A stretch of 64,000 nucleotides of DNA from Pantoea agglomerans (lineage in GTDB: Bacteria > Pseudomonadota > Gammaproteobacteria > Enterobacterales > Enterobacteriaceae), in assembly GCF_020149765.1 (NCBI RefSeq), contig NZ_CP083809.1:496001-560000 (forward strand), given 5' to 3'. Each line of letters opens with the position of its first letter. Position 1 is the stretch's first letter. Position numbers and translations under genes: made by a program. Positions 1-17,057 of the stretch are shown here, piece after piece. Below the pieces are notes generated by a model, which searched no databases, had not been told where the DNA came from, and worked only from the letters and a program-made list of their open reading frames with translations.

Positions 1-1653
1 TGCGGCCACGCGGCGCAGGAAAAGGGTGCCGCAGCGGCGGCAGGCACGCTGTGGGAGCTGATGCGCCGCTTTAACCAGCTGCCCGATATGGCGCGCGCCG
101 ATGTCGATCGGCTGGCAGGGGATATCGCCAGCTTTATCTTCGCCGAGCTGGTGCAGCTGCACGGGCAGAACGGCGGCGAATCGGACTGGCGCTATAGCCA
201 CTCCCTCTATCTGACCGCCGCGACCCTTACCCGCGAATTCCGCCAGACGCCGCCGCTGTGGCAGAAGGTCACCACGCGCCTCTTTGCACCGGAAGAGGTG
301 ACGCCGGCGATCATGCGCATGCAGGGCGAAAGCTGGTGGAAAGGGCGGCTGCGCCGTCTCGCCGCCGAATGGCGCGAACATCTGCAGATTGCGCTGGCGC
401 AGGTCAGTAAGACGCGTTCGCCCTATGCCAGCCGCGCCACCATTGCCGAATGGCGCGAGCAGAAGCGGCGCACCCGCGACTTTTTACAGGGCATGGAGCT
501 GGAAGATGAAGAGGGCAACCGCATCAGCCTGATCGACAAGCATGACGGCAGCGTTGCCAATCCCGCCATCCGCCGCTGCGAGCTGATGACGCGCATTCGC
601 GGCTTTGAGACGATCTGCAATGAGATGGGCTACATCGGCGAGTTTTGCACCCTGACCGCGCCGGCGCGCTATCACGCCACGCTCAGCAGCGGCCAGCACA
701 ACCCCAAATGGGGCGGTGCCAGCCCCGCTGAGACGCAGCGCTACCTCTGTCAGCTCTGGCAAAAGGTGCGCGCCAGGCTGCACCGCGAGCAGATCCGCCT
801 GTTCGGCATCCGCGTTGCTGAACCCCACCATGACGGCACGCCGCACTGGCATCTGCTGCTGTTTATGCGTCCCCAGCAGGCTGCACAGGTGCGCCAGATC
901 CTGACGGAATATGCCTGCCAGCAGGACAGCGAAGAGCTGATCGGCGAAAAAGCGCGCAAGGCCCGCTTCCACACCACCGCCATCGACCCGCAAAAGGGCA
1001 GCGCCACGGGCTATATCGCGAAATATATCGCCAAAAATATCGACGGCTACGCCCTCGACGGCGAGCGCGACAGCGAGAGCGGCGAGCCGCTGCGCGACTG
1101 CGCCGCCGCGGTTTCCGCCTGGGCGGGGCGCTGGCATATCCGCCAGTTTCAGTTTGTCGGCGGCGCGCCGGTGACCGTCTGGCGTGAGCTGCGCCGTCTG
1201 ACTCAGGGCGAGGGGCTGAGCGCGGAGCTGGCCGAGGCGCGCGCGGCGGCCGACAGCGGCGACTGGGCCGCCTATGTGAACGTCCAGGGCGGCCCGTTCG
1301 TGCGTCGCGATGAGCTGGCGGTGCGCGTCTGGTATCAACAGGCGAAGGAGTGCAACAGCTGGGGCGAAGAGATTATGCGCATTAAAGGGGTCTACCTCAA
1401 CGCGCTGGACGATAAGCAACCGCTACTGACCCGACTGGTCAGCTGGAAGCTGGTGCCGAAACGTAAAGCGGAGGCTGGCCCTGTTGAGCAGAACGCATCA
1501 GCCTGCAGTTCGAGTTCTGTCATTAACTGTACGCGGATAGCGCGTCGGCCAGGGCTATTAGCGCGGTTAAATCATTGGCCCGAACCGACAGTAAAAAACC
1601 GGGCAAAACCGGCTGGCGAGGGCGGTTTATACAGCCAGAACGCGCCGCCCTGA
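1..1653 (+). CDS. A: Replication initiator gpA, 5' end outside window, C-terminus divergent/truncated
   Basis: Rolling-circle initiator endonuclease of P2-like phages, which nicks one strand within its own gene. Reading frame 1 is open from base 1 and aligns with the complete gpA at 33730-35982. The HUH motif (ATPHWH-like, here GTPHWHLLLF) is near 840-865 and the tandem-tyrosine motif YIAKYIAKN near 1012-1038. After the origin-like stretch encoding SSSVINCT the protein departs from its paralogue: about 40 unrelated residues replace about 125. The missing tail begins just beyond the nick region, where the head genes have also been lost, so a deletion junction close by is likely. Whether it still nicks DNA cannot be told. 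Confidence 0.9.
   Translation, partial: CGHAAQEKGAAAAAGTLWELMRRFNQLPDMARADVDRLAGDIASFIFAELVQLHGQNGGESDWRYSHSLYLTAATLTREFRQTPPLWQKVTTRLFAPEEVTPAIMRMQGESWWKGRLRRLAAEWREHLQIALAQVSKTRSPYASRATIAEWREQKRRTRDFLQGMELEDEEGNRISLIDKHDGSVANPAIRRCELMTRIRGFETICNEMGYIGEFCTLTAPARYHATLSSGQHNPKWGGASPAETQRYLCQLWQKVRARLHREQIRLFGIRVAEPHHDGTPHWHLLLFMRPQQAAQVRQILTEYACQQDSEELIGEKARKARFHTTAIDPQKGSATGYIAKYIAKNIDGYALDGERDSESGEPLRDCAAAVSAWAGRWHIRQFQFVGGAPVTVWRELRRLTQGEGLSAELAEARAAADSGDWAAYVNVQGGPFVRRDELAVRVWYQQAKECNSWGEEIMRIKGVYLNALDDKQPLLTRLVSWKLVPKRKAEAGPVEQNASACSSSSVINCTRIARRPGLLARLNHWPEPTVKNRAKPAGEGGLYSQNAPP
1503..1535. other. P2-type replication origin (gpA nick region)
   Basis: GAGTTCTGTCATTAACTGTACG lies inside gene A near its end, as the P2/186 origin does. 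It matches the origin in prophage 2 (35559-35590) apart from one A/T change in the core and changes on the flanks. Confidence 0.6.
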
Positions 1654-1780
1654 CGCGCTTTTTCCGCCTTTTTTACTCATTTGGCTTAGCGCTAACGCCG
1701 CCAAAAAAGTCGCTATATCAATAGCCTAAGAGGAGGGTATTCGGGCCTTAATTTTCTTTATATCAGATTGCATGCTGTGC

Positions 1781-1800
1781 TACTGTATAGATATACAGTT
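1781..1800. promoter_or_regulatory. LexA (SOS) box
   Basis: TACTGTATAGATATACAGTT is almost the ideal LexA operator (CTG-N10-CAG with AT-rich centre). It ends 19 bases before the GTG start of the next gene, so that gene should be induced by DNA damage. Confidence 0.88.
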
Positions 1801-1819
1801 ATAAGATGGGGGAGGGAAA

Positions 1820-2011
1820 GTGGATACTGATTTACAAGAACAGGTAATGCTTGAGCGCGTCGAGCTCATTGCACGTCTGACCACTGAAGGAGTTTGCAGG
1901 GAACGCGACCGGGAAGTGGCCCTCGCTCTGATTGCCGAGATTGCCGGCGATATGATGATAAAGAACAAGGAATTTGCCGTTTCGTTCTCCGCGATACCCA
2001 CCAACAAATAA
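1820..2011 (+). CDS. Small SOS-controlled phage protein (63 aa)
   Basis: Starts at GTG 1820 behind GGAGGG. I do not recognise the family by name. It is helical and acidic, and aligns over most of its length with the 62-aa protein at 36103-36291: both have a hydrophobic helix (LERVELIARL / LQRIDLFMKL), then charged residues and a second helix ending in a Met-Lys-rich segment. Both genes lie just downstream of gpA and directly behind a LexA box. In phage 186 the LexA-controlled gene in this region is the antirepressor tum, which is larger; a role in induction is therefore only a guess. A terminator follows about 110 bp after the stop. Confidence 0.7.
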   Translation: MDTDLQEQVMLERVELIARLTTEGVCRERDREVALALIAEIAGDMMIKNKEFAVSFSAIPTNK

Positions 2012-2376
2012 CAATGCAGGTATGGCGATGAGATACGACGGCTCAAGGCACAAACAGCGACTGATTCTCATCCTTTCCTTATAACGCGCTCGCCCTTCGG
2101 CGACGGCCAGCTGGAAGCGCTAACGGCACCCTCAGGGTGCCGTTTTTTTTGCGCCGCGATCTCGCTGTTTGCCCATATTCCAGCGGGCGGCCTGGCGTTG
2201 AGCCATTGCCCTGCAGCGGGGAGACTGAGCAGACCGGATGACGCGCAAGCGCCGCCGCACGCAACCGCAAAGCCGGCCCGAAGCCGGGCTGGCCGACATT
2301 ACCTCCAACGGGGAACAACAACAGTGACGCACAATTTTAGCGTGCCCGTCCGCGGGCCTGATGGGGAGCTATCGCC
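2012..2376. other. Non-coding gap where head genes are expected
   Basis: 365 bp between the SOS gene and tail gene X. It holds a strong terminator (2123-2150), GC-rich sequence with small hairpins, and an 18-codon GTG frame (2323-2380) that overlaps the start of X as the end of an upstream gene would. I see no cos, no TGT-N12-ACA Ogr box and no remnant of Q, P, O, N, M or L. Confidence 0.6.
2123..2150 (+). terminator. Rho-independent terminator
   Basis: ACGGCACCC-TCA-GGGTGCCGT stem followed by a run of eight T. It separates the SOS gene from the tail operon. Confidence 0.85.
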
Positions 2377-2580
2377 ATGAATATCTACGCGCTCCAGGGC
2401 GATACGGTCGATGAGATCTGCTATCGCTACTACGGCCGCACGCAGCAGGCGGTCGAGCAGGTTTACGCCGCCAATCCCGGCCTCGCCGAACGCGGCGCGG
2501 TGCTGCCGCACGGCTATGCCCTGACGCTGCCCGATCTGCCGGACGCGGCCACCGGCGAAACCGTCAATCTGTGGGACTGA
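2377..2580 (+). CDS. X: Tail protein X (gpX)
   Basis: 67-aa P2 gpX-type protein with the LysM-like pattern GDTVDEICYRYYGRT...VYAANPGLAERG...LPHGYALTLP; such small proteins help form or stabilise the tail. It pairs with the X gene of prophage 2 at 45575-45778. It starts the tail and lysis operon here, directly before the holin gene, because the head genes that normally precede it are gone. Confidence 0.92.
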   Translation: MNIYALQGDTVDEICYRYYGRTQQAVEQVYAANPGLAERGAVLPHGYALTLPDLPDAATGETVNLWD

Positions 2581-2582
2581 AG

Positions 2583-2792
2583 ATGGAGAAAACCAGCTCG
2601 CTGATTAACTACCTGGTCAGCCTGTTTCTGATGTGGCTGGGTCGTCACACCATTCAGGATATCGCTTTTCTGGTCGGCTCCGGCGTGGCGGTCATCACCC
2701 TGATGGTTAACGTGGCGACCTTTTTTATCAACTGGCACTACCGCCGCAAAACCTATGAGCTTCAGCGCCAGCGCGCAGGGAGGCGATCCTGA
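2583..2792 (+). CDS. Phage holin
   Basis: 69-aa inner-membrane protein with two hydrophobic stretches (about residues 7-22 and 28-48) and a basic C-terminus ending in RRKTYELQRQRAGRRS. It matches the holin at 45782-45994 in size, position and the HYRRKTY/YYKHKTY segment. It would form the membrane lesion that starts lysis. Its stop overlaps the start of the endolysin gene. Confidence 0.85.
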   Translation: MEKTSSLINYLVSLFLMWLGRHTIQDIAFLVGSGVAVITLMVNVATFFINWHYRRKTYELQRQRAGRRS

Positions 2793-3298
2793 GCCAGAAC
2801 GCAAAGCGCTGCGCCGTGGCCGCCGTACTGGGGATCGCCGCGCTGCTGCCGTCATTCTCTACGTTGAAAATCTCCTCCGGCGGCCTGCAGCTGCTGGCCG
2901 ACGCAGAGGGCTGCCGCACCTCGCCCTATCAGTGCAGCGCTGGCGTCTGGACCAACGGCATCGGCCATACCGCAGGCGTGACGCCGCAGAGCGTCGTCAG
3001 CGAGCGCCAGGTGGCGGTGAATCTGGTGGACGATCTGATACGTGTCGAACGCCAGCTCTCTCTCTGCGTGCCGGTGGCGATGCCGCAGCCGGTCTGGGAC
3101 GCGCTGGCGAGCTTTGCCTTTAACGTCGGCACCGACGCCGCCTGCCGCTCAACCATGGCGAGCTATCTCAACCAGCAGCGCTGGCGCGCGGCGTGCGACC
3201 AGCTGCCGCGCTGGATCTACGTGAACGGCGTGAAAAGCGCCGGGCTGGCGCAGCGGCGCGAGCGGGAGCGCGCCTGGTGCCTGCGAGGCGTGGTATGA
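2789..3298 (+). CDS. SAR-type endolysin (lysozyme, GH24)
   Basis: Muramidase with the triad pattern Glu-8aa-Cys-5aa-Thr (EGC...QCSAGVWT), as in its paralogue at 45975-46490. A weakly hydrophobic N-terminal segment (AVAAVLGIAALLPSF) fits a signal-arrest-release anchor. I place the start at CTG 2789: it follows GGGAGG at a 5-base spacing, overlaps the holin stop, and restores the RCAV... N-terminus shared with the paralogue. GTG 2816 is the alternative but lacks a Shine-Dalgarno sequence and would cut into the anchor. Confidence 0.85.
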   Translation: MSQNAKRCAVAAVLGIAALLPSFSTLKISSGGLQLLADAEGCRTSPYQCSAGVWTNGIGHTAGVTPQSVVSERQVAVNLVDDLIRVERQLSLCVPVAMPQPVWDALASFAFNVGTDAACRSTMASYLNQQRWRAACDQLPRWIYVNGVKSAGLAQRRERERAWCLRGVV

Positions 3299-3744
3299 CG
3301 CGCCTCTGTCTCGCGCTGCTGGCGGCGCTGCTGCTGGCGCTCGCTCTCACCGGCTGGCGCGTTGTTCAGGTCGGGGCGCAGCTCCGCGAGGCGCAGCGCA
3401 TCAGCCTCGCGCTCTCCGCCGATCTCGCCAGCCGTGACCAGACCATCGCCCGCCTGAGTGACGAGGCGCAGGCAAACAGCAAACGCGAGGCGGCGCTGCG
3501 TCAGCAGCAGAGCCGTGCCAGCCGCCTCGCCCTCAACCGTGAAGTGCATATAGCGAGGGAAACCGATGCAAATCAGGCGTTACGCGAGTGGTCTGCTGCC
3601 GCTCTGCCTGACGATCTTATCCGGCTGCACAGCCGTCCCTCCTTCGACAACGCCCGCGATTATCTGGGCTGGCTGTCCGCGCGTGAACAGCTGTCCAGTG
3701 CCGGGCAACAGCCTGCAAACCCAGGGCGATCTGGCGGCAGATAA
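3295..3744 (+). CDS. lysB: LysB / Rz-like spanin, inner-membrane subunit
   Basis: Start ATG 3295 overlaps the endolysin stop. One N-terminal membrane helix (residues 3-20) is followed by a long coiled-coil rich in Gln, Arg and Ala: the i-spanin plan. It joins the outer-membrane lipoprotein encoded in a second frame within it (lysC) to disrupt the outer membrane at lysis. It corresponds to 46487-46921. Confidence 0.82.
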   Translation: MTRLCLALLAALLLALALTGWRVVQVGAQLREAQRISLALSADLASRDQTIARLSDEAQANSKREAALRQQQSRASRLALNREVHIARETDANQALREWSAAALPDDLIRLHSRPSFDNARDYLGWLSAREQLSSAGQQPANPGRSGGR

Positions 3745-3952
3745 CCGTCAGCTAGAGGCTGCGCTCGTGTCGTGCGGGCTGCAGATTGAAACCATTAAAG
3801 CGTGTCAGGAGCAACAAGATGCAGAAACCTCAACAGCTACGCGCGGCGCTGAACCGCAGCGTGCCGCTGCTTCAGCAAAACCCGGAGCGGCTGACCATGA
3901 CGATAGCCGCTGGAACGGTGGTGGCGACCAGCGCGCCGTCGCTCTCTTTTGA
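3566..3952 (+). CDS. lysC: LysC / Rz1-like spanin lipoprotein
   Basis: Starts inside lysB in another frame, the usual nested Rz/Rz1 layout. A short signal sequence ends in a lipobox, LTILSGC. At 128 aa it is longer than its paralogue (46764-47054), because the frame runs on through the start of gene R to 3952. The C-terminal part beyond about residue 85 may therefore be unselected extension. Confidence 0.75.
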   Translation: MQIRRYASGLLPLCLTILSGCTAVPPSTTPAIIWAGCPRVNSCPVPGNSLQTQGDLAADNRQLEAALVSCGLQIETIKACQEQQDAETSTATRGAEPQRAAASAKPGAADHDDSRWNGGGDQRAVALF

Positions 3953-4274
3953 GTATCGCTACCGGCTGGAATTAACCCTCGCCGACGTTGAGCAGGATAT
4001 CGAGGCGGTTATCGTGCCGCTGCTCGCCTGGCTGCGTGATAACCAGCCGGAGATGATGGGCAACGCCGAGAAACGACGCAGCGATTTTACCTTCGCGTCC
4101 GACGCCGCCGGCACGCTCAGCATCGGCCTGCAGCTGAGCGAGCGCGTGCTGGTCACGCAGGCGGACAGCGCGCTGCAGGTCACCTTTCCCGGCGAGCCGA
4201 CGCCGCCCGCGAACGATGAGGCACCGCTGCAGCTCTGGGTGCACGGCGCGCTGGTCAGCGAGTGGCAGCGCTAA
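3819..4274 (+). CDS. R: Tail completion protein R
   Basis: P2 gpR family, needed for correct tail termination. It begins MQKPQQLRAALNRSVP, matching MNKPQSLRNALNKAVP at 47017. The start ATG 3819 follows AGGA and lies inside lysC. In P2 gene S follows R directly; here S is absent and baseplate gene V comes about 70 bp later. Confidence 0.9.
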   Translation: MQKPQQLRAALNRSVPLLQQNPERLTMTIAAGTVVATSAPSLSFEYRYRLELTLADVEQDIEAVIVPLLAWLRDNQPEMMGNAEKRRSDFTFASDAAGTLSIGLQLSERVLVTQADSALQVTFPGEPTPPANDEAPLQLWVHGALVSEWQR

Positions 4275-4345
4275 AGCTGTCCTGTCATCTCTCAGCGGTC
4301 GGCACTGCGTTGCTGGCCGCATGCACCCGAGGTAACACTAGCGAC

Positions 4346-4936
4346 ATGAACGAACATATCAGCGAAATCCTGCGCCTGCTGCGCAACCTTATCCGCATCG
4401 GCACCGTCTCGGCGGTGGATCCCCAGAGCGGGCGCTGCCGCGTACGCAGCGGCGACAATGAAACCGGCTGGCTGCCGTGGCTCAGCGCCCGCGCCGGACG
4501 CTCCCGCGCCTGGAGCGCGCCGTCGATCGGCGAACAGGTGCTGGTGCTGAGCCTGGGCGGCGAGCTGAATACCGGCTTTATCCTGCCGGGCATCTTTTCC
4601 GACAGCCATCCCGCGCCTTCCGCCTCGGCTGACGCGCTGCACTGGGCCTTTCCCGACGGCGCGGTTATCGAGTATGAGCCGCAGAGCGGGGCGCTGCAGG
4701 CGAGCGGCATTCAGACCGCCCGCATCCAGGCGGCAACCCGCATCCTGTTTGACGCGCCGCTGGTGGAGTGCAGCGCAAAGCTGAAAACCGCCACGCTGGA
4801 GGTAACCGGCGGCGGCACGCTGCAGGGCAACGTGACCCACAGCGGCGGCAGCCTGAGCTCTAACGGCATCGTGGTCGACGCCCATCAGCATGGCGGCGTG
4901 AAATCGGGCGGCGATCTGTCGGGAGGGCCGCAGTAA
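4346..4936 (+). CDS. V: Baseplate assembly protein V (central spike)
   Basis: P2 gpV-type spike: an N-terminal OB-fold domain (MNEHISEILRLLRNLIRIGTV, then VDPQSGRCRV) and a C-terminal beta-helix ending HQHGGVKSGGDLSGGPQ. The HxH near the tip is the iron-binding spike motif known for this family. I choose ATG 4346 by comparison with 48870-49448. It overlaps gene W by one base. Confidence 0.93.
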   Translation: MNEHISEILRLLRNLIRIGTVSAVDPQSGRCRVRSGDNETGWLPWLSARAGRSRAWSAPSIGEQVLVLSLGGELNTGFILPGIFSDSHPAPSASADALHWAFPDGAVIEYEPQSGALQASGIQTARIQAATRILFDAPLVECSAKLKTATLEVTGGGTLQGNVTHSGGSLSSNGIVVDAHQHGGVKSGGDLSGGPQ

Positions 4937-5283
4937 TGGCTGAAAAATATCTCGGTATGAGCCGCGACAGCGGCACGGCGCTAACGGACCTGGAGCATAT
5001 CCGGCAGTCGGTGCGCGATATTTTGACCACGCCGCTTGGCTCGCGCGTGATGCGCCGCCGGTACGGCTCGCTGCTGTCGGCGCTGATCGATCAGCCGCAA
5101 AACCCGGCGCTGCGCCTGCAAATTATGTCCGCCTGCTATATGGCGCTGTTGCAGTGGGAGCCGCGCATTCAGCTGAGCGCTATCAGCTATGAGGCGTCGT
5201 ATGACGGCGGCATGACGGTAGAGCTTACCGGCAGCCGCAGCGATACGGCGCAAGAATTTTCCCTGACCATTCCCGTGAGCTGA
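4936..5283 (+). CDS. W: Baseplate protein W (gp25-like)
   Basis: 115-aa wedge protein of the gp25/lysozyme-like family; YLGMSRDSGTALTDLEHIRQSVRDILTTP and a GSRVMRRRYGS segment are hallmarks. Paralogue at 49445-49801. It is part of the V-W-J-I baseplate run. Confidence 0.93.
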   Translation: MAEKYLGMSRDSGTALTDLEHIRQSVRDILTTPLGSRVMRRRYGSLLSALIDQPQNPALRLQIMSACYMALLQWEPRIQLSAISYEASYDGGMTVELTGSRSDTAQEFSLTIPVS

Positions 5284-5287
5284 ACCT

Positions 5288-6196
5288 ATGGCAACCATTG
5301 ACCTGAGCCAGCTGCCTGCGCCCGATGTGGTGGAGGCGCTGGATTATGAAACCCTGCTGGCCGAGCGTAAGGCGACGCTGATTTCCCTCTATCCGCCCGA
5401 GCAGCAGGCGGCGATAACCCGCACGCTGGCGCTGGAGTCGGAGCCGCTGGTGAAGCTGCTGCAGGAGAACGCCTACCGCGAGCTGATTCTGCGTCAGCGC
5501 ATCAACGAGGCGGCGAAAGCCAATATGGTCGCCTGGGCGACCGGCGCCGATCTCGACCAGCTGGGCGCCAATAACGGCGTAACCCGGCTGACGCTGAGGG
5601 CGGCTGACAACAGCACGCTGCCGCCGACCGCGGCGGTGATGGAGAGCGACGACAACTTTCGCATGCGCATTGCCGCCGCCTTAGAAGGGCTGAGCGTGGC
5701 GGGGCCGAGCGGTGCCTATGAGTATCACGCCAAAAGCGCTGATGGACGCGTGGCGGACGTTTCCGCCACCAGTCCGGCGCCGGCGGAGGTGGTGATCACC
5801 GTGCTGAGCCGCGAAGGCGACGGCTCCGCGCCTGCCGATCTGCTGGAAATCGTGGCGAGCGCGCTTAACGATGAGGATGTGCGTCCGGTCGCCGATCGCG
5901 TTCAGGTGCAGGCGGCGACTATCGTCAGCTACCGCGTTGACGCGACGTTGTTTCTCTATCCCGGCCCCGAAGCGGAGCCGATCCGCGCCGCCGCCGAGGC
6001 GAAGCTGCTCGCCTTTATCAACGCCCAGTCGCGGCTGGGGCGCGATATTCGCCAGTCGGCGCTTTACGCCGCGCTGCATGTGGAAGGCGTACAGCGCGTC
6101 GAGCTGGCGCAGCCGGCGGCAGATGTGGTGCTGGATAAAACTCAGGCCGCCTGGTGCAGCGGCTACAGCATCACGGTAGGAGGTTCCGATGAGTGA
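5288..6196 (+). CDS. J: Baseplate protein J
   Basis: 302-aa Mu gp47/P2 gpJ-type wedge protein that sits at the baseplate periphery and carries the fibres. It starts MATIDLSQLPAPDVVE, nearly the same as the paralogue at 49788. It overlaps gene I by 8 bases. Confidence 0.93.
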   Translation: MATIDLSQLPAPDVVEALDYETLLAERKATLISLYPPEQQAAITRTLALESEPLVKLLQENAYRELILRQRINEAAKANMVAWATGADLDQLGANNGVTRLTLRAADNSTLPPTAAVMESDDNFRMRIAAALEGLSVAGPSGAYEYHAKSADGRVADVSATSPAPAEVVITVLSREGDGSAPADLLEIVASALNDEDVRPVADRVQVQAATIVSYRVDATLFLYPGPEAEPIRAAAEAKLLAFINAQSRLGRDIRQSALYAALHVEGVQRVELAQPAADVVLDKTQAAWCSGYSITVGGSDE

Positions 6197-6797
6197 TTGG
6201 CTGCTGCCGACTGGCTCCTCGCCGCTGGAGGTGGCGGCCGCCCGGGCCTGCGCCGCTATCGAGGCGATGCCGGTCCCGCTGCGCCAGCTGTGGAATGCGC
6301 AGACCTGTCCGGTGGAACTGCTGCCTTATCTCGCCTGGGCCTGGTCGGTGGACCGCTGGGACGCTGGCTGGAGCGAGGCAACCAAACGCAGCGTCGTGGC
6401 CGCCTCGGAGTACGTACATCGCCATAAAGGCACCATTGGCTCGCTGCGACGCGTTGTGGAGCCGCTCGGCTATCTCATCCGCATCACCGAGTGGTGGAAG
6501 TCTGGCGAGGCTCCGGGCACGTTTCGCCTCGATGTTGGCGTGCTCGAAACCGGGATTACCGAGGAGATGTACAACGAGCTGGAGCGGTTAATTGCTGACG
6601 CGAAGCCGTGCAGCCGTCATCTGATCGGCCTCTCTATCAATCTGGACTCCAGCGGAACGCTGCCGGTGGCTGCTGCCAGCTACAGCGGCGACGAGCTGAC
6701 GGTTTACCCCTACACCCCTGAAATCATCACCGTGAACGGGCCGGGCTACACCGGCACAGCGGTACATTTAATTGACCTGACGGAAGTGCGCACATGA
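6189..6797 (+). CDS. I: Tail protein I
   Basis: 202-aa P2 gpI family baseplate protein linking J to the fibre. Conserved LWNAQTCPVELLPYLAWAWSVDRWD and a C-terminal half near-identical to the paralogue at 50699-51310. It overlaps H by 4 bases (ATGA). Confidence 0.92.
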   Translation: MSDWLLPTGSSPLEVAAARACAAIEAMPVPLRQLWNAQTCPVELLPYLAWAWSVDRWDAGWSEATKRSVVAASEYVHRHKGTIGSLRRVVEPLGYLIRITEWWKSGEAPGTFRLDVGVLETGITEEMYNELERLIADAKPCSRHLIGLSINLDSSGTLPVAAASYSGDELTVYPYTPEIITVNGPGYTGTAVHLIDLTEVRT

Positions 6798-7849
6798 CAA
6801 CGAAATATTATGCCCTGCTGACCAATCAGGGCGCGGCTAAGCTGGCGAACGCCACGGCGCTCGGCACTAAGCTGCAAATCACAGAGATGGCGGTAGGTGA
6901 CGGCGGCGGTTCGCTGCCGACGCCCAATGCCTCGCAGGCCGGGCTGGTGGGAGAAAAACGCCGTGCGGCGCTTAATTCCCTCAGCGTCGACGCCAACAAC
7001 AGCAGCCAGATTATCGCCGAGCAGATTATCCCGGAGAACGAAGGTGGCTTCTGGATCCGCGAAATCGGCCTGTTTGACGCCGATGGCGTGATGATTGCCG
7101 TCGCCAACTGCGCGGAGACCTATAAGCCGCAGCTGCAGGAGGGCAGCGGCCGTACGCAGACGGTGCGCATGATTATCATCGTTAACAGCACGGATGCGGT
7201 CACGCTGAAGATTGACCCGTCGGTGGTGCTGGCGACGCGCCAGTATGTGGACAACGGGGTGATTGAGGCGAAGCAGTATGCGGATAAGGGGCTGGCCGAC
7301 CATATTGCCGCGGCTAATCCGCATCAGCAGTATCTGCAGATCGCTAATGCGCTGGCGGAGGTGAAGAGTGCAGGGAAGGTGGCGGAGGTTCTACAAAACC
7401 TTGGTTTAGGAGAAGGCTCCGCGTTACCGGTGGGCGTGCCCGTTCCGTGGCCATCAGCGACGCCACCCGCAGGCTGGCTGAAGTGCAACGGTGCGGCATT
7501 TACGGCGGCTCAGTACCCTAAACTGGCGCAGGTTTATCCTTCTCTGAAACTTCCCGATTTGCGTGGTGAATTTATTCGTGGCTGGGACGACGGACGCGGA
7601 GTGGATTCCGGGCGTGCTCTTCTTACTGTTCAGGCCGATGAATTGCGTTCCCATAACCATCGCTTGATTAATGAATACGGCACGCCTTCAACAAATTTCA
7701 TTGCCTTTACCGATCAAAACAGCGAGGGCGTTGACGGCGGTCTGCGTGAGGGCTCAAGAGCCTGGACTTATATCACGATGGAAAAAACGGGGGGCAGTGA
7801 AACCAGACCTCATAACATTGCATTTAACTACATCGTGAGGGCCGCATAA
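6794..7849 (+). CDS. H: Tail fibre protein H, variable tip in invertible segment
   Basis: 351-aa fibre. Residues 1 to about 200 (DUF3751-type base: MTTKYYALLTNQGAAKLANATALGTK) are constant and match H of prophage 2. The reading frame crosses a recombination site at 7389-7414 (encoding VLQNLGLGE). The remaining 150 residues form a phage collar-type tip (PPAGWLKCNGAAF, PDLRGEFIRGWDDGRGVDSGR). The tip determines host receptor choice. Inversion would replace it, in frame, with the glycine-rich tip encoded at 9333-8655. Confidence 0.93.
   Translation: MTTKYYALLTNQGAAKLANATALGTKLQITEMAVGDGGGSLPTPNASQAGLVGEKRRAALNSLSVDANNSSQIIAEQIIPENEGGFWIREIGLFDADGVMIAVANCAETYKPQLQEGSGRTQTVRMIIIVNSTDAVTLKIDPSVVLATRQYVDNGVIEAKQYADKGLADHIAAANPHQQYLQIANALAEVKSAGKVAEVLQNLGLGEGSALPVGVPVPWPSATPPAGWLKCNGAAFTAAQYPKLAQVYPSLKLPDLRGEFIRGWDDGRGVDSGRALLTVQADELRSHNHRLINEYGTPSTNFIAFTDQNSEGVDGGLREGSRAWTYITMEKTGGSETRPHNIAFNYIVRAA
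7389..7414. repeat. Left DNA-inversion crossover site (gix/hix type)
   Basis: 26-bp site with half-sites around a central dinucleotide (AAAACC-TT-GGTTTA at its core). It resembles the Gin site of Mu and is inverted relative to 9321-9346. The frame AAC CTT GGT (Asn-Leu-Gly) is the same in both sites. Confidence 0.85.
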
Positions 7850-9407: not shown

Positions 9408-9989
9408 ATGGCCATGATTGGTTATATTCGCGTATCAACAATTGACCAGAACTGCGACTTACAGCGCGATGCGCTGTTAAGCGCAAATTGTGACCGTATT
9501 TTTGAAGATCGTATCAGCGGCAAAACCGCAACCCGTCCGGGCCTCAAACAGGCGCTTAAATGCATCAGCAAAGGCGATACGCTGGTCGTCTGGAAACTGG
9601 ACCGGCTCGGACGCAGCGTGAAAAACCTGATTGCGCTAATTTCCGAACTGCACGAACGCGGCGCGCATTTCCGCTCTTTAACCGACAGCATCGACACCAG
9701 CAGCGCGATGGGGCGCTTCTTTTTTCACGTTATGTCGGCGCTGGCAGAAATGGAGCGCGAGCTTATCGTTGAGCGCACCCTGGCCGGGCTGGCCGCTGCC
9801 AGAGCAAAAGGACGGCTAGGCGGGCGGCCCAAAGCATTAAGCCCGGAGGAGGTCGAGCAAATAAGTCGGCTGCTGGCTAAGGGACACAGCCGCCAGCAGC
9901 TGGCGATCATTTATAACGTCGCGCTATCAACCCTCTATAAATACTTTCCGGCCAGGGCGCCCGAAAGCAGGCAGGAAGCGGCATCCTGA
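9408..9989 (+). CDS. Serine DNA invertase (Gin/Pin/Hin family)
   Basis: 193-aa small serine recombinase. The catalytic Ser is in GYIRVST at the N-terminus, and KLDRLGRSVKNL and the long E-helix (MGRFFFHVMSALAEMERELI) are conserved. The C-terminal helix-turn-helix ends in STLYKYFP. It would cut the two 26-bp sites on its left to swap fibre tips, normally with help from Fis at an enhancer I did not locate. It sits between the fibre cassette and sheath gene FI, where P2 carries its Z/fun cargo. The first ATG is used; ATG 9414 is also possible. Confidence 0.93.
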   Translation: MAMIGYIRVSTIDQNCDLQRDALLSANCDRIFEDRISGKTATRPGLKQALKCISKGDTLVVWKLDRLGRSVKNLIALISELHERGAHFRSLTDSIDTSSAMGRFFFHVMSALAEMERELIVERTLAGLAAARAKGRLGGRPKALSPEEVEQISRLLAKGHSRQQLAIIYNVALSTLYKYFPARAPESRQEAAS

Positions 9990-10131
9990 GCGTAATAGCA
10001 ACGGCTGAAAAACCGCAGTGGTTCTTCCCGCGCGAGGCCGCTGTCCGCTCATCCCCCAGCAAACCGCAACCGCATGATTTCTCTCAGCTGACCTGACAAT
10101 CTGACTCCACCCTCAACACGGAGTACATCAG

Positions 10132-11301
10132 ATGTCTGATTATCATCACGGTGTACGCGTTGTCGAAATCAATGACGGCACGCGCACCATCTCTACTGTA
10201 TCCACCGCCGTAGTCGGCCTGGTCTGCACTGCAGCGGACGCAGACGCTAAGGCTTTCCCCCTCAACACCCCGGTGCTGCTGACCAACGTGCAGGCCGCTA
10301 TCGCCAAAGCCGGTAGCAAAGGCACGCTGGCGGCATCGCTGCAGGCGATTGCCGATCAGTCAAAACCGGTCACCGTCGTGGTACGCGTTGCTGAAGGCGA
10401 GACCCCCGAAGCGACCACCTCCAATATCATCGGCACCACCGATGAGAATGGCCAGTACACCGGTATGAAGGCGCTGCTGACGGCGCAGACGCAGCTTGAC
10501 GTTAAGCCGCGTATTCTCGCCGTACCGGGCCTCGACTCGCAGGAAGTGGCGACCGCGCTGGCAAGTATCGCGCAGCAGCTGCGCGCCTTCGCCTATGTGT
10601 CAGCCTGGAACTGCAAAACCATCAGCGACGCCATGAATTACCGCAAAAATTTCAGCCAGCGCGAGCTGATGGTGATCTGGCCGGACTTTGTTGCCTGGAA
10701 CACCGCAACCAGCCAATCCGATACCGCTTACGCCACTGCGCGTGCGCTGGGCCTGCGCGCCAAAATCGACAACGACACCGGCTGGCATAAAACCCTGTCG
10801 AACGTCGGCGTCAACGGCGTCACCGGCATCTCTGCGCCGGTGTTCTGGGATCTGCAACAGACCGGCACAGACGCTGACCTGCTCAACGCGGCGGACGTCA
10901 CCACGCTGATCCGCAAAGACGGCTTCCGCTTCTGGGGCAACCGCACCTGTAGCGACGACCCGCTGTTTCAGTTTGAGAACTACACCCGCACCGCGCAGGT
11001 TCTGGCTGACACCATGGCTGAAGCGCACATGTGGGCGGTAGACAAACCGCTGACGCCGGTTCTGGTGCGCGAGATCATCGCGGGCATCAACGCCAAATTC
11101 CGCGAGCTGGTCAGTGCTGGCTACCTGCTGGGTGCCTCCGCCTGGTACGACGAGAGCGCCAACGACGCCGACACCCTGAAGGCGGGCAAACTCTTTATCG
11201 ACTACGACTACACGCCGGTGCCGCCGCTGGAAGATCTGACCCTGCGCCAGCGCATCACCGACACCTATCTGGCGAACTTCGCCGCATCCGTAAACAGCTA
11301 A
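10132..11301 (+). CDS. FI: Tail sheath protein FI
   Basis: 389-aa contractile sheath subunit, very close to 53226-54395 ([21 protein letters not shown]-terminal [26 protein letters not shown]). It contracts to drive the tube through the cell envelope. First gene of the FI-D tail block. No TGT-N12-ACA Ogr box is visible in the 142 bp upstream. Confidence 0.95.
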
Positions 11302-11313: not shown

Positions 11314-11823
11314 ATGGCACTACCCCGCAAACTGAAAGGGCTGAACCTTTTCAATGATTCAAACAGCTATCAGGGCGTTGTCTCTTCCGTCACCCTGCCG
11401 AAACTCTCTCGCAAGCTGGACGCCTATCGCGGCGGCGGCATGAACGGCGCCGCCTTTATCGACAACGGCCTGGACGATGACGCGCTCGATATGGAGTGGA
11501 CCATCGCCGGGATGGACGATCTGGTGCTGACGCAGTGGGGCGGTTCTGCCGTGCCGCTGCGTTTTACCGGCTCTTACCAGCGTGACGACACCGGCGAAGA
11601 GATTGCGGTGGAGATTGAGGTGCGCGGCCGTCATCAGGCGTTCGACTTTGGCGAAGCCAAACAGGGCGAAGAGACCGAAACCAAAATCACCACCAAAAAC
11701 ACCTACTTCAAACTCACCTGGAACGGTAAAGAGCTGATTGAGATCGATACCGTCAACATGGTCGAAAAGGTGAACGGCGACGATCGCCTTGCGCAGCGCC
11801 GTAAAAACCTCGGCCTGGCTTAA
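11314..11823 (+). CDS. FII: Tail tube protein FII
   Basis: 169-aa major tail tube subunit (MALPRKLKGLNLFND...YRGGGMNGAAF), homologous to 54408-54923. It forms the inner tube. A hairpin with a T run follows. Confidence 0.95.
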   Translation: MALPRKLKGLNLFNDSNSYQGVVSSVTLPKLSRKLDAYRGGGMNGAAFIDNGLDDDALDMEWTIAGMDDLVLTQWGGSAVPLRFTGSYQRDDTGEEIAVEIEVRGRHQAFDFGEAKQGEETETKITTKNTYFKLTWNGKELIEIDTVNMVEKVNGDDRLAQRRKNLGLA

Positions 11824-11880: not shown

Positions 11881-12177
11881 ATGGAACAGAATGAAAATAG
11901 CGTTGAGCTGGAAACCCCGCTGAAACGCGGCGATGCGACCATCGCGCAGGTTGAGCTGATTAAGCCGAGCGCCGGCTCGCTGCGCGGCGTGCGCCTTGCC
12001 GACCTGGCCTCCTCCGACGTCGATGCGCTGCTGACGGTGCTGCCGCGTATTACGCTGCCTGCGCTGACCAAAGCGGAGTGCAACAGCCTCGACCCGGTGG
12101 ACCTGATTGCGCTCGGCGGCAAGGTGATTGGTTTTTTGCAGTCGAAGTCGGCAGCGTCGACTGGCCCGGCGGACTGA
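11881..12177 (+). CDS. E: Tail assembly chaperone E
   Basis: 98-aa gpE. It works with its frameshifted form to fold or load the tape measure protein. Paralogue at 54978-55280. A slippery T TTT TTG lies at 12132-12138, twelve codons before the stop. Confidence 0.9.
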   Translation: MEQNENSVELETPLKRGDATIAQVELIKPSAGSLRGVRLADLASSDVDALLTVLPRITLPALTKAECNSLDPVDLIALGGKVIGFLQSKSAASTGPAD

Positions 12178-12314
12178 CGGTCAACGATCTGATGGCTGAT
12201 ATCGCCGCCATTTTTCACTGGCCTCTTTCTGATATGAACGATCTGCCGCTGGCCGAGCTCCTCGACTGGCGGCATAAAGCCCTGATCCGCAGCGGAGCAA
12301 ATACGGATGAGTGA
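11881..12314 (+). CDS. E+E' product by -1 frameshift
   Basis: A -1 slip on T TTT TTG (12132-12138) leads into an open frame to 12314, giving about 144 aa. The extension (VDWPGGLTVNDLMADIAAIFHWPLSDM) matches the extension in prophage 2, and the stop overlaps the start of T. P2 makes the same programmed shift. Confidence 0.85.
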
Positions 12315-14766
12315 AGACCTCAAACTGCAGGCGCTGCTGAAGGCGGTTAATCAGGCGCTGCGCCCGCTACAGAGCCTTCAGAACGAAACGCAAAAAGTCG
12401 CCGGCTCCATTGCTGATACGCAGCGGAGCCTGGCGGCGCTGCAGGCGCAGTCGGCGAAAATCGACGGCTTTCGCGCCACCAGCCGCCAGCTGAACGACAC
12501 GCAGCAGCAGCTTAAACAGGCGAAGGCGGAAACGGCGGCGCTGGCGCTGGCGATGCGCAACAGCCATCAGCCTGCGGAGCAGCAGAGCCGCGCGCTGGAA
12601 AAGGCGCGTCAGCGTACCGCTGCGCTGCAGAGTCAGGCGCAGAGCCTGCGTCTGTCGATGCAGCAGCAGCGAGAAAGCCTGAACGGCGCGGGTATCTCTA
12701 CGCGCAGCCTGAGCAGCGAACAGCTGCGGCTGAAAACCGCCGCGGCGCAGGCCAGCCAGCACCTTAACGGTCAGCAACAGCAGCTGCAGCGGCTGAACCA
12801 GCAGCAGGAGCGGCAAAACCAGACGGCGGAGCGCTACCGCAAAGGTCAGGCGCTGGCGGGCAAGATCCGCAGCGCCAGCGCGGCGGGCATCGGCCTGGCG
12901 AAAGCGGGCTTCACCGCTGGCGCCGCGCTGCTGCGTCCCGGCTACGAGCTGGCGCGCACCGATGCTGCCCTGCAGGCCAAAACCGGCCTGCAGAAAGGGT
13001 CGCCGCAGGCGGTCGCGCTGGATAAACAGGCGCGCAGCCTCAGCGTGCAGACCGGCATCCCGGCGCAGGCGGTGGCGCAGACCCAGCTCGATATCGCCCA
13101 GGCGGGCGGGACGATCGACGATATCACCTCCGCGACGCCGGTGGCGCTGAATATGGCGCAGGTCAACCAGCATTCGGCAGAGGATAACGCCGGTCTGCTG
13201 ATGGAGACAAAAAGCGCCTTCGGCCTCAACAGCGGGGATATTGCCCATCTGGGCGATGTGCTTAGCGCCACACTCGACCAGGCCGGAATGAAGTTTGAGG
13301 ATCTGAGCAGCGCGCTGAGCAGCGTTGCGCCGGTGGCAAAAAGCGCCGGCGTCGGCGTTGAGCAGACCTCCGCCATGCTGGGGCTGCTGGCGAAAAATCA
13401 TATTACCGGCGCGGCGGCGGGCGACGAGGTCAGCACGATCCTGACTCAGCTACAGACGCGCGACGGCGAACGTACTATCGCTGCGCTTGGCGTGTCCACC
13501 CGCGACGAAAACGGCGACGCACGGCAGATCCTGCCGCTGCTGAAAGATATTCAGGCCGCCTTCGCCAGAAAGGGGATGAACGCGACGCAGCAGGCGGACG
13601 TGCTGAAGAGCATTGTTGGCGCGAAGGCGGCCTCGTCAGCCTCGCTGCTGACGCAGGGCGCCGCCAGCGGCGAGCTGGAGACGCTTACCGCCTCGGTACA
13701 GCAATCCGACGGCGGGACGGCGCGCAGGGCGCAGGCGCAGCAGGACAGCCTCGGCGGGGATCTGCAAAAGCTGGATGCCTCGAAGGCGGCTATTGGCGTC
13801 GACCTTTTCGCGCCGCTTGACGGCCCGCTGCGCACGCTGACGCAGGAGGCGACGCAGTTCCTGCAGACCATCGACCAGTGGCTGCAGGATAACCCGGCGC
13901 TGGCCAGCGGCATCGCAACGGCGGCGGCGGTCGCGATGACCTTTGTCGGCGCGCTGAGCGCTATCGGCATGGCGGTCTGGCCGGTGGTGAGCGGGGTCGG
14001 CGCCATTATGGCCGGCGTCGAGATCCTTGGCGGCCTGTTCACGGTAGTGGGCGGCGCTATCGTCAGCGCCATCGGCGCCATCACCTTGCCGGTGGTAGCT
14101 ATCGTGGCGGCTATCGTCGGCGGCGCGCTGCTGATCCGTCAGTACTGGGAGCCCATCAGCGCCTTTATCAGCGGCGTCGCGCAGGGGTTTTCCGCAGCGA
14201 TGGGCCCGATCGGCGACGCCTTTGCCCCGCTGCAGCCGGTGTTCGCCTGGGTGACGGACAAGGTTAAGTCGGTGTGGAACGGCTTTACCCAGCTGCTGGA
14301 GCCGGTGAAAGCGACGCAGGCGCAGCTGGCTGTCGCTGGCGATATGGGGAAAAGCTTCGGCAATATGCTCGCCGAGGCGCTGAAGATCCCTGGCCACGCA
14401 CTGGATCAGCTCACCAGCGGCATCAACTGGGTGCTGAACAAGCTCGGCATCGTCAGCAGTAAAAGCAAAGATCTGAAGGCGGATCTGCCGCCAGACGCGG
14501 CAGCCGTTGAGAACGGCGCCGTGCCCGACGCCAGCGGGCTGCAAACCAAAGTGCTGACCGGCGGCGCGACCTACCGGCCGGTGGTGGCGCCCGCCGCGGG
14601 CAGCATGACGCAGCAGAACGCCTACACCAACAATATTACGGTGAATGCGCCAGCCGGAATGGACGCCCATGAGATTGGACGGGTTGTGCAGGAGCATTTA
14701 AATCAGCAGCAGTTTGAGCAGCAAAACCGGCAGCGCAGCGCCATGACAGGAGGATTCTATCCATGA
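12307..14766 (+). CDS. T: Tape measure protein T
   Basis: 819 aa. The N-terminal 180 residues are coiled coil rich in Gln, Ala and Arg. A phage tail tape measure core (TIGR01760 type) follows around residues 215-500, with hydrophobic segments near 530-610 (IATAAAVAMTFVGALSAIG, VVAIVAAIVGGALL). It sets tail length and may enter the target membrane. It is 74 residues shorter than T of prophage 2, which would predict a slightly shorter tail. Confidence 0.93.
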   Translation: MSEDLKLQALLKAVNQALRPLQSLQNETQKVAGSIADTQRSLAALQAQSAKIDGFRATSRQLNDTQQQLKQAKAETAALALAMRNSHQPAEQQSRALEKARQRTAALQSQAQSLRLSMQQQRESLNGAGISTRSLSSEQLRLKTAAAQASQHLNGQQQQLQRLNQQQERQNQTAERYRKGQALAGKIRSASAAGIGLAKAGFTAGAALLRPGYELARTDAALQAKTGLQKGSPQAVALDKQARSLSVQTGIPAQAVAQTQLDIAQAGGTIDDITSATPVALNMAQVNQHSAEDNAGLLMETKSAFGLNSGDIAHLGDVLSATLDQAGMKFEDLSSALSSVAPVAKSAGVGVEQTSAMLGLLAKNHITGAAAGDEVSTILTQLQTRDGERTIAALGVSTRDENGDARQILPLLKDIQAAFARKGMNATQQADVLKSIVGAKAASSASLLTQGAASGELETLTASVQQSDGGTARRAQAQQDSLGGDLQKLDASKAAIGVDLFAPLDGPLRTLTQEATQFLQTIDQWLQDNPALASGIATAAAVAMTFVGALSAIGMAVWPVVSGVGAIMAGVEILGGLFTVVGGAIVSAIGAITLPVVAIVAAIVGGALLIRQYWEPISAFISGVAQGFSAAMGPIGDAFAPLQPVFAWVTDKVKSVWNGFTQLLEPVKATQAQLAVAGDMGKSFGNMLAEALKIPGHALDQLTSGINWVLNKLGIVSSKSKDLKADLPPDAAAVENGAVPDASGLQTKVLTGGATYRPVVAPAAGSMTQQNAYTNNITVNAPAGMDAHEIGRVVQEHLNQQQFEQQNRQRSAMTGGFYP

Positions 14767-15254
14767 TGATGATCTACGGCATGCTGCCCTTTATGCGGCA
14801 GACGCTGCCCTACAGCCAGCTGATACACAGCAGCGACTGGAAGTGGGCCAGCAATACCCGCGTCGGCAGGCGCAACGCAGCGCAGTTTACCGGCAAAGGC
14901 AGCGACAAGATCTCCCTGAGCGGCGAGCTGCGCCCGGAGCTTACCGGCGGCCCGGTTAAGGCGCAGGCGTTTCAGCTACTGGCTGACGAAGGGCGCGCCT
15001 GGCCGCTGATCGGCGGCGACGGCACCATCTACGGCATGTATGTGATTGAGAGCTTTAAGACGACGCACAGCGATTTCTACGCCGACGGCAGCGCGCGCGT
15101 AATTGCCTTTACCCTCGACCTGATGCGCATTGACGAGTCGCTGGTCTCGATGTTCGGCGACCTGAAAGCGCAGGGCAGCGCGCTGTGGGCGAAGGCAGAA
15201 GCGGCGGCGGGCAAGCTCTCTTCAGGCATCACGACGGGAGGCTTCTCACTGTGA
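14763..15254 (+). CDS. U: Tail protein U
   Basis: 163-aa P2 gpU family (MLPFMRQTLPYSQLIHSSDWKWASN), paralogue of 58091-58576. It acts at the tail end in assembly. It overlaps T and D by 4 bases each. Confidence 0.92.
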   Translation: MMMIYGMLPFMRQTLPYSQLIHSSDWKWASNTRVGRRNAAQFTGKGSDKISLSGELRPELTGGPVKAQAFQLLADEGRAWPLIGGDGTIYGMYVIESFKTTHSDFYADGSARVIAFTLDLMRIDESLVSMFGDLKAQGSALWAKAEAAAGKLSSGITTGGFSL

Positions 15255-16393
15255 GTGAACTCGGCGCGATGGCGATTAAGGCGGGCAGCCGGCCGGCGCC
15301 CGATTTTATGCTGTGGCTCGGCAGCAAGGATGTGACGCCCAATCTGCGCGATCGGCTGATCTCGCTGGCGCTTACCGATAATCGCGGCTTCGAAGCGGAT
15401 ACGCTAAAACTGACGCTGGACGACAGCGACGGGCTGCTGCAGCTGCCGCAGCGCGGCACGGTGGTGTCGCTGTTCCTGGGCTGGGTTGGCCAGCTGCATA
15501 ACAAGGGCGATTTTACGGTCGATCAGGTAAGCCACGGCGGCGCGCCCGATGTGCTGACTATCCTGGCGCGCAGCGTCGATTTTCGCGGGGAGCTGGGCAA
15601 GGCGCGCGACCTCTCATACCACGACACTACGCTGGGCAGCATTGTGACGCAGATAGCGCAGCGCTGCGGGCTGATTTTGCAGATGGCGGACGGGTTTGCC
15701 GGGATCAAGATCGATCATATCGATCAGACCCACGAAACCGATCCCAGCTTCGTTACCCGACTGGCACAACGCTATGGCGCGGTCGCGGTTATCAAAGCGG
15801 GGCGGCTGCTTTTTTTGCGCCCCGGCAGCGGCCAGTTAGCCAGCGGCAAGGCGATCCCAACGGTGACGCTGACGCGCCAGGATGGGGATAAACACAATTT
15901 TACTGTTGCCGACCGCACCAGTTATACCGGCGTGCAGGCGAGATGGCTCTCAACAAAGGAGGCGAAGACGCATGTGCTGCAGCTGCAGCGCAAGGCAAAG
16001 GCCACGAACGCCAGCGCGGTCGCCCATCCGGATGCACAGAGCGCGCCGCCGCTAACGGGTAATCAGGAAGGGGATTATCTCTCCGGCGCAAAAGAGAGCC
16101 TGCTGGTGCTGCCGGAGGTGTTCAACAGCGAAGAGGCGGCAATGGCGGCGGCGGAGGCGAAGTGGAACCAGATACAGCGCGGCGCGGCTCACTTTACCTT
16201 TCAGCTGGCGACAGGACGCGCGGATCTCTATCCTGAAACCCCGGTCAGGGTCAGCGGCTTTAAAGCGATGATTGACGCCAGCGCCTGGATAATCAGTAAG
16301 GTGACGCATAATCTGAGCGTAAGCGACGGGTTTACCACTACGCTGGAGCTGGAGAATGACATCACAGATGTGGAATACGAGAGAATTGACTAA
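15251..16393 (+). CDS. D: Late control / baseplate hub protein D
   Basis: 380-aa gpD, structurally a gp27-like hub between tube and spike. GTG 15251 overlaps the U stop and agrees with the start of the paralogue at 58573. Conserved LALTDNRGFEADTLKLTLDDSDG and DHIDQTHETDPSFVTRLAQRYG. Confidence 0.92.
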   Translation: MSELGAMAIKAGSRPAPDFMLWLGSKDVTPNLRDRLISLALTDNRGFEADTLKLTLDDSDGLLQLPQRGTVVSLFLGWVGQLHNKGDFTVDQVSHGGAPDVLTILARSVDFRGELGKARDLSYHDTTLGSIVTQIAQRCGLILQMADGFAGIKIDHIDQTHETDPSFVTRLAQRYGAVAVIKAGRLLFLRPGSGQLASGKAIPTVTLTRQDGDKHNFTVADRTSYTGVQARWLSTKEAKTHVLQLQRKAKATNASAVAHPDAQSAPPLTGNQEGDYLSGAKESLLVLPEVFNSEEAAMAAAEAKWNQIQRGAAHFTFQLATGRADLYPETPVRVSGFKAMIDASAWIISKVTHNLSVSDGFTTTLELENDITDVEYERID

Positions 16394-16468
16394 CTAATAG
16401 TTAATTAATTTGCTTTTTGTGAGTAATTGGCGCGATAATGGCTGCGTCAACTACGGAGGAACTCACAA

Positions 16469-16678
16469 ATGATGCATTGTCCGCTGTGTCAGAGCGCTGC
16501 CCATACGCGCAGTAGCCGTTATATCTCTAACGAGACCAAAGAGCGCTATAACCAGTGCCAGAACATCAACTGCAGCTGCACCTTTAAGACGCACGAAAGC
16601 GTGACCGGGATGATCGTCACGCCGGGTAAAATCGAGAAGGTGGCGATAGCAAAGAAGCAGACTCAGGCTCGCGCCTGA
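16469..16678 (+). CDS. ogr: Ogr/Delta-type late gene activator
   Basis: 69-aa zinc-finger activator: CPLCQSAAH near the N-terminus and CQNINCSC later supply the Cys ligands, with KERYNQCQN as in P2 Ogr. Such proteins bind TGT-N12-ACA sites at about -55 of late promoters. It has its own ribosome site (GGAGG) and is followed by a terminator. I could not find perfect Ogr boxes before X, V or FI of this element. Confidence 0.93.
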   Translation: MMHCPLCQSAAHTRSSRYISNETKERYNQCQNINCSCTFKTHESVTGMIVTPGKIEKVAIAKKQTQARA

Positions 16679-16694
16679 GCCTTTAAAGAGCAAA

Positions 16695-16716
16695 GCCCGC
16701 GCAAGCGGGTTTTTTT
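16695..16716 (+). terminator. Terminator after ogr
   Basis: GCCCGC-GCAA-GCGGG stem and a run of seven T. Confidence 0.8.
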
Positions 16717-16726
16717 ATGGCGGCAG

Positions 16727-16761
16727 CGCCGCCTCTTGGAGTGCTGTCAATAAGTGTACGG
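16727..16761. repeat. Extra P2 origin-like sequence outside gene A
   Basis: CTCTTGGAGTGCTGTCAATAAGTGTACGG matches the origin of prophage 2 (35562-35590) at 26 of 29 positions by my alignment. A second shorter copy of the core (ATAACTGTACG) follows at 16794-16804. No gpA coding sequence surrounds it. Confidence 0.6.
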
Positions 16762-17057
16762 AGCGGGCAACGGCTGCCTTGCCTGCGCTGGCCATAACTG
16801 TACGCCCTGATTAAAACCCTCAAAGCAGCCATCCAGCCCCTGCTGTTCACTATGCCAGGAGAAGCGCGGCGCTTTTTAACGTCCTCAGCGCGGCCGTTAT
16901 TTATTTCAGAAGCAGTAAGCGATGAATATTTTTCAGAGAAGCCAGGCGGCAAATAAGGGCGCCCCAGGTGCAGCGCTGTTAATCAGCATCAGGTTATCCC
17001 CCGGACGCACATATTTCCCGCGGTGACTTTACAGAGAGCAGTCGCTGCTCCCGCTCG

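Follow-up and report, generated by a model that had tools for sequence, protein, structure and literature searches.

A probable pantailocin-type, P2-derived R-type tailocin locus of Pantoea with a retained replication gene A

Introduction

Pantailocins, tailocins of the genus Pantoea, lie in an island flanked by rpoD and sulP according to the portion of the P. allii paper available to us (PMC12873547). Tailocins are described as derived from prophages without replication genes, and the same is said of xnp1 in the sections of PMC8855722 consulted, which also report up-regulation of Xnp1 GpA after mitomycin C. No discussion of why gene A (the replication gene) or its origin is kept in tailocins was found in the literature covered, which did not include the main pantailocin paper (Stice et al. 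2023). We analyzed a stretch of 64,000 nucleotides of a Pantoea chromosome (G000:C2:496001-560000; hereafter the window), at the left of which lies a P2-type element that an earlier note on this DNA had proposed as a candidate R-type tailocin. The element is very probably a pantailocin-type, P2-derived R-type tailocin locus of Pantoea. The novelty claimed for it in that note is overstated, since pantailocins have already been characterized at this chromosomal position (as reported in the available part of PMC12873547). The locus is thus a further member of a known tailocin type, and its unexpected part is the retained gene A.

Results

The element extends from about 2.1 kb to the left of the window (locus L005) to 16.7 kb within it (Table 1); the span of 1..16810 given in the earlier note is corrected at its start. 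The left end carries CI (L005:17909-18523) together with A and small early genes, and the right end carries ogr, which finishes at 16678. Open frames are present for X, Y, K, LysB, R, V, W, J, I, H, G, FI, FII, E, T, U, D and ogr. In all, approximately 20 genes for tail, lysis and control have open frames, the contractile tail set is complete and in P2 order, and the element has its own lysis cassette of holin Y, endolysin K and spanin LysB. The open reading frames (ORFs) and their PHROG matches agree with the earlier statement that lysis, sheath, tube, tape measure, baseplate, fiber and activator genes are all open. No capsid, portal or terminase gene is present in the element. When Q, P, O, N, M, L, S and the integrase of the complete prophage in the same window were used as tblastn queries, none matched the element, confirming the absence of the first seven as originally described. 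None matched the 20 kb to its left either, where the earlier note had named head genes as a finding that would speak against its proposal. A complete P2-like prophage is ruled out by this content, without head genes and without integrase.

The cos sequence had also been listed as absent. In a 19-base comparison, run without a shuffled control, the best match was 14/19 in the element and 13-15/19 in nine other headless elements, and five complete Pantoea relatives had 18/19 matches to the 186 cos. No good match was thus found, but the comparison misses diverged sites, as the complete prophage of the window also reached only 14/19. That prophage, the yardstick of the earlier note, is not the closest complete relative, and the closer complete relatives G013, G002, G037, G056 and G011 were used in its place.

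In 61 genomes of the genus, a query for the A-to-X junction matched 26. Besides the genome of the window, 14 of the other 25 were inspected and 11 are uncounted. The 15 inspected elements (that of the window included) comprised 10 headless and 5 complete ones, so at least 10 of the 61 Pantoea genomes have a headless element. The interval from A to V was without Q, P, O, N, M, L and S in 10/10 headless elements and held them in 5/5 complete ones; a single Q match in G052 lies in another, adjoining element. The comparison of gene content proposed in the earlier note gave the same missing genes in ten headless Pantoea elements. G047 and G052, both headless, retain an integrase, and the element adjoining that of G052 is also of P2 type.

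The junction together with the left (ddl) flank is common to 5 of the 61 genomes (G000, G038, G033, G014 and G021; the same-site genomes). Across four or five of these, 22 element genes have no internal stop (A trimmed to its own start). The ratio of nonsynonymous to synonymous substitution rates (dN/dS; NG86 method, same-site genomes) was low for J (0.117), I (0.111), W (0.117), FI (0.091), FII (0.063), CI (0.060) and ogr (0.051). Constraint was weaker for T (0.234), U (0.243), D (0.191), R (0.281) and LysB (0.531); the neighboring ddl had 0.092. The tested element genes are under purifying selection. The four genes for which this calculation had been suggested are J, FI, FII and T, the last of them among those with weaker constraint.

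On the left, the island is flanked by sulP-family, GGDEF and ddl (D-Ala-D-Ala ligase family) genes, and on the right by tRNA-Met, SDR, tetR, mug and rpoD. The 20 kb to the left hold a carbonic anhydrase family gene besides those of the ddl, GGDEF and SulP sulfate permease families. In G038 (P. septica), the tailocin lies between SulP-GGDEF-ddl and tRNA-Met-SDR-tetR-mug-rpoD, the families having been checked on the copies in the window, and T is 91% identical in Pantoea septica LMG 5345. Judged from these flanks, the site appears to be the position of the published pantailocin island, with sulP equated by family only. In the window the island is enlarged, such that the tailocin is followed by approximately 12 kb of cargo and then by the complete P2-type prophage.

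Gene A homology in the same-site group stops just past the block homologous to the P2 nick site. This block is followed by 122-139 codons in 14/14 complete elements and by a median of 54 in 36 headless elements (rank test, p 2e-7, computed with two broken genes included and as if related elements were independent). A is broken in 2 of these 36 (G610b and G470, the latter from a genome with a completeness rating of 49%). In the 34 with an open A, the codons after the block number 80 or fewer in 24, 91 in 2 and 114-129 in 8. The retained, 3'-truncated replication gene of the earlier note was thus correctly seen, and it deserved more weight than it received there. The HUH and YxxxY nickase motifs were present in 17/17 headless elements checked. 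The dN/dS of the catalytic part of A was 0.059-0.135 in nine headless pairs (genomes partly shared) compared to 0.012-0.053 in five complete pairs; over A, eight further headless pairs gave 0.082-0.177 in seven, and one was saturated. This faster evolution than in complete phages possibly reflects relaxed use.

When 532 27-nt windows of A were compared across 17 headless elements, the nick block showed the highest conservation (0.95, median 0.767), and it also ranked highest at third positions (0.98, median 0.627). At least 20 of its 23 bases were found in 36/36 headless elements, a count without a chance control. Such conservation would be expected of a cis-acting nick site under selection. 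An anchored origin conservation profile was partly circular, as the search pattern fixed most positions, and was replaced by the comparison of all windows. The origin block in the window is unlike that of all nine Pantoea headless relatives, and this alteration weakens the origin-nicking reading for this copy. A distant headless element, G333b (L087), has a similar 6-nt duplication-like change in its origin block; there, the bases at the nick look unchanged.

We sampled 246 genomes of the family, of which 81 together yielded 113 X genes, and sought a capsid gene within 6 kb upstream; capsid absence was used because a search by Tum-to-X distance is biased toward A retention. A capsid gene was found for 68 of the 113, of which 60 had A within 16 kb. 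The other 45 had no capsid gene nearby, and in 28 of these A lay 0.5-4.4 kb upstream. All 28 were inspected: 27 were without Q, P, O, N, M and S (L is retained in G426 and G581), and G316, with Q, M, L and S still present, is a prophage with a deletion. This less biased sample therefore gives A in 27 of 44 capsid-less loci; the stretches of G532 and G600b end early at contig ends. Among the 17 loci without A, one inspected (G571) is headless, and 12, whose X matches are weaker than 1e-13 (8.1e-14 for the strongest), possibly belong to other phage types. Overall, A was present in 36 of 37 inspected headless P2-type elements and open in 34; the 37 are the ten of Pantoea, a further eight, and nineteen chosen because A was near.

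Changes between the headless and complete states are forced at least five times by the baseplate tree and at least three times by the A tree. From these comparisons, headless P2 elements appear to have arisen several times, mostly shedding head, packaging and S while keeping the SOS switch, A and the origin. A single origin of all headless elements was tried on tail genes and rejected (approximately unbiased [AU] test, p 3.7e-6 for V-W-J-I-H, 1.1e-10 for FI-FII, and 4e-50 for W-J with 30 rows). The A tree groups the ten Pantoea headless elements with support of 99/98 (18 rows) or 92/89 (30 rows), and of 69 in an earlier simpler model; long branches may be the cause of this grouping.

Between the short Tum and X, headless elements retain a dyad like the one preceding O in complete phages. 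This and the dyads before V and FI were judged on alignments by eye, without statistical control. It seems that two or more stretches around a retained promoter were lost, as was S from the interval between R and the V promoter; chance deletion would hardly leave dyads that lie between lost blocks. Ogr boxes of the P2 form TGT-N12-ACA had suggested loss of the late promoters. That reading was dropped, as the complete Pantoea relatives are also without this form, and in the alignment a dyad of another form stands at all three late-promoter places. S was lost along with the head in 27 of the 28 sampled A-bearing capsid-less loci, and R was retained in most; the repeated joint loss suggests that S acts at the head-tail joint.

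Tum is annotated in the phage 186 record as LexA-repressed and CI-inhibiting. Upstream of CI are 57 consecutive columns invariant in five genomes (the first CI codons included), and the region upstream of ogr is strongly conserved in four. The Tum match, the 186 annotation and these two conserved regions suggest a control route from LexA through Tum, CI and Ogr to the late genes. The earlier note had taken the LexA box and the fiber switch as signs of selection for use as a bacteriocin. Neither carries that meaning: perfect SOS boxes were present in 11/11 complete relatives scanned, so the box is inherited, and an invertase together with crossover sites also occurs in the complete prophage G013, so the fiber switch is a phage inheritance retained in some headless elements.

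The two crossover-like sites are 26 bp long and inverted, and 20 shuffled 40-kb sequences reached at most 16/23 against the same consensus, which was in part taken from these sites themselves. By arithmetic, H stays in frame in both orientations, since each site has its core dinucleotide on the second base of a codon. Two sites and a full-length invertase were found in G000 and G033, one site and an invertase fragment in G014, and neither in G038; the fiber region of G021 is outside the available sequence. Four other headless elements (L082, L083, L098 and L099) have at least three H-type fiber N-termini in a row.

Table 1. Features of the element (positions in the window unless marked L005; E values follow family names)
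Feature	Position	Strand	Description	Evidence
A	L005:19686 (start, outside window) to window 1653	+	replication initiator nickase, 3'-truncated	PHROG 91 (nicking at origin), 4e-224; Phage_GPA, 3e-115; HUH + YxxxY motifs
Origin (nick) block in A	1508..1530	+	altered in window copy	20/23 positions; homologous to P2 nick site 29892 annotated in NC_001895
LexA (SOS) box	1781..1800	+	TACTGTATAGATATACAGTT	sole perfect CTGT-N8-ACAG in window
Short Tum (PHROG name DinI)	1820..2011	+	63 aa	65% identity over 60 aa to phage 186 Tum N-terminus, E 2e-26
Terminator-like hairpin	2122..2144	+	after short Tum	in 5/5 same-site relatives
Late-promoter-like dyad	2166..2188	+	before X; apparent remnant of O promoter	by eye
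X	2377..2580	+	baseplate hub	PHROG 46, 2e-30
Y	2571..2792	+	holin	PHROG 20, 5e-16
K	2816..3298	+	endolysin	PHROG 7, 4e-57
LysB	3286..3744	+	spanin	PHROG 89, 3e-32
R	3822..4274	+	tail terminator; S missing 3' of R	PHROG 65, 6e-44 (run on 3786-4274)
Late-promoter-like dyad	4278..4300	+	before V	by eye
V	4343..4936	+	spike/baseplate	PHROG 9992, 5e-35
W	4936..5283	+	baseplate wedge	PHROG 43, 3e-49
J	5288..6196	+	baseplate	PHROG 4226, 3e-99
I	6189..6797	+	baseplate/tail protein	PHROG 48, 7e-94
H	6794..7849	+	tail fiber, current orientation	PF12571, PF07484
Crossover-like site 1	7389..7414	-	in H	22/23
G	7849..8436	+	fiber assembly chaperone	PHROG 105, 2e-77
63-aa ORF	8467..8658	-	after alternative fiber end	open frame, no family match
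Alternative fiber C-terminus	8655..9374	-	silent	PHROG 863, 4e-42; Gly_rich_2
Crossover-like site 2	9321..9346	+		20/23
Fiber invertase	9408..9989	+	serine recombinase	PHROG 125, 4e-86; PF00239
Late-promoter-like dyad	10042..10064	+	before FI	by eye
FI	10132..11301	+	sheath	PHROG 23, 1e-147
FII	11314..11823	+	tube	PHROG 55, 7e-68
E	11881..12177	+	tail assembly protein	PHROG 103, 7e-39
T	12307..14766	+	tape measure	PHROG 28, 2e-144
U	14763..15254	+	tail protein	PHROG 76, 4e-61
D	15260..16393	+	baseplate hub	PHROG 52, 1e-145 (run on 15185-16393)
ogr	16469..16678	+	late activator	PHROG 603, 1e-24

Beside E, an overlapping ORF at 12078-12314 may be E'. The cargo (17058-28499) holds Amidohydro_2, DHDPS-family, LacI-family and MFS genes, two pieces of an AAA_25 ATPase, and GIY-YIG and MTES_1575 nuclease-like genes. 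The complete P2-type prophage (29180-60550) has a 51-bp repeat at both ends, 29180-29230 being a copy of 60471-60521, of which 47 bp are inside tRNA-Met. It is without a perfect SOS box, its late-promoter sequence is unlike that of the tailocin, and the 19-base comparison recognizes no cos in it. Between its S and V is an FRG-domain gene (47895-48779), possibly a defense gene, and between its A and Q are three ORFs (258, 223 and 292 aa; 37143-39465), the first and third of which have no Pfam match.

Discussion

The identification of the element as a tailocin, as the earlier note had proposed, follows from a complete tail, lysis and control set, the loss of head genes, S and integrase, conservation in other Pantoea genomes, and low dN/dS. 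CI would hold such a locus off in undamaged cells. DNA damage would remove LexA, allowing the short Tum to be made and to disable CI, which would release the early genes and ogr, and Ogr would then act on the late promoters retained in front of X, V and FI to turn them on. Tails would assemble without heads, and the holin, endolysin and spanin would lyse the cell. The released contractile tails would puncture relatives recognized by the current fiber, the invertase flipping between the two fiber ends.

Several points weigh against this identification. In G003, G021 and G060 the contig breaks off at H, which leaves the second half of these headless elements outside the data. The short Tum is without the second half of 186 Tum, and its anti-CI activity is therefore presumptive. 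The dN/dS set excludes the variable end of H, G and the invertase, and complete phages have lower values, at larger dS, for T (0.100), U (0.083), D (0.056), R (0.120) and LysB (0.245), a difference that could be relaxation or shorter divergence. The likeness to the pantailocins was assessed by position and description (in the source portions available), and the cargo and complete prophage are additions to their island. A decaying prophage that lost its head block by chance would fit the raised values for these five genes and for A, the truncation of A, and an integrase that was not found. Decay is nevertheless very improbable, given that five species share one site at which most tail genes have open frames and low dN/dS, and that head genes and S, a set lost elsewhere too, are gone while promoter-like dyads stay. 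The retained A and origin, the complete P2-type prophage 12 kb away and the integrases of G047 and G052 would also suit a satellite or transfer element that borrows the heads of another phage; yet cos was not recognized (in a limited test), S and integrase are missing here, and the late-promoter sequences of the nearby prophage differ, making this explanation very improbable as well.

The remaining alternative concerns what A does in the same tailocin. A may nick the origin block after induction and start in-place replication toward X and the tail genes. Late transcription of P2 needs replication, and the effect would be either a higher copy number of tail genes or fulfillment of that need. 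Consistent with a working A are its presence, mostly as an open gene, in nearly all inspected headless elements and upstream of X in 28/45 capsid-less loci, its nickase motifs, its catalytic dN/dS and the conserved origin block. The rise of GpA of Xnp1 after mitomycin C points the same way. Opposing it are the altered origin block of the window copy, the faster evolution of A than in complete phages, the 17/45 capsid-less loci without A (and headless G571), and the selection of 19 of the 37 inspected elements for a nearby A. We consider a working A and origin possible, with the doubts outweighing the support by a little. In broader form, we tentatively propose that P2-derived tailocins of Enterobacterales are not replication-free: the A nickase and origin would be kept by selection after head loss, production would include origin nicking and probably in-place replication that amplifies the downstream tail genes, and the C-terminal loss of A in most headless elements would mark a shift to a local role. 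The locus adds to a characterized Pantoea tailocin type, and its retention of A makes the assumption of replication-free tailocins testable.

Phages 186 (NC_001317) and P2 (NC_001895) share with the element the gene order, A with an internal origin, the LexA site and Tum (186), and the Ogr/B activator; they differ in having heads, S, cos and integrase. The other systems are compared here from the available portions of their descriptions. Enterocoliticin (PMC13030884) is likewise a contractile tailocin of an enterobacterium, but its tail genes are Mu-like. Carotovoricin Er (PMC12090994, PMC13195805) also has invertase-driven fiber inversion; it was compared by description only, and the sheath of dickeyocin shares only 34% identity with it (PMC10719855), which suggests a different phage ancestor. 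Dickeyocin P2D1 of Dickeya (PMC10719855) is a P2-type headless tailocin of approximately 22 kb that mitomycin C boosts; its main text, as available, never mentions integrase, repressor, DinI or invertase, and uses "replication" only for technical replications. The xenorhabdicins xnp1/xbp1 (PMC13280938, PMC8855722) are P2-type, have CI, a DinI-named gene and OgrK, are without head, portal and terminase, and express GpA, whereas they belong to Xenorhabdus, have no invertase gene in the locus as described, and span 12-41 kb with a large variable region. Closest are the pantailocins of Pantoea ananatis ATCC 35400 and P. stewartii subsp. indologenes ICMP 10132 (PMC12873547, PMC10720522, PMC13280938), which share the genus, the R type and the rpoD-sulP island. 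An invertase gene has been reported in the P. stewartii locus (PMC13280938) and is a further point of likeness; the earlier note had presented fiber inversion as an addition to known P2-derived tailocins.

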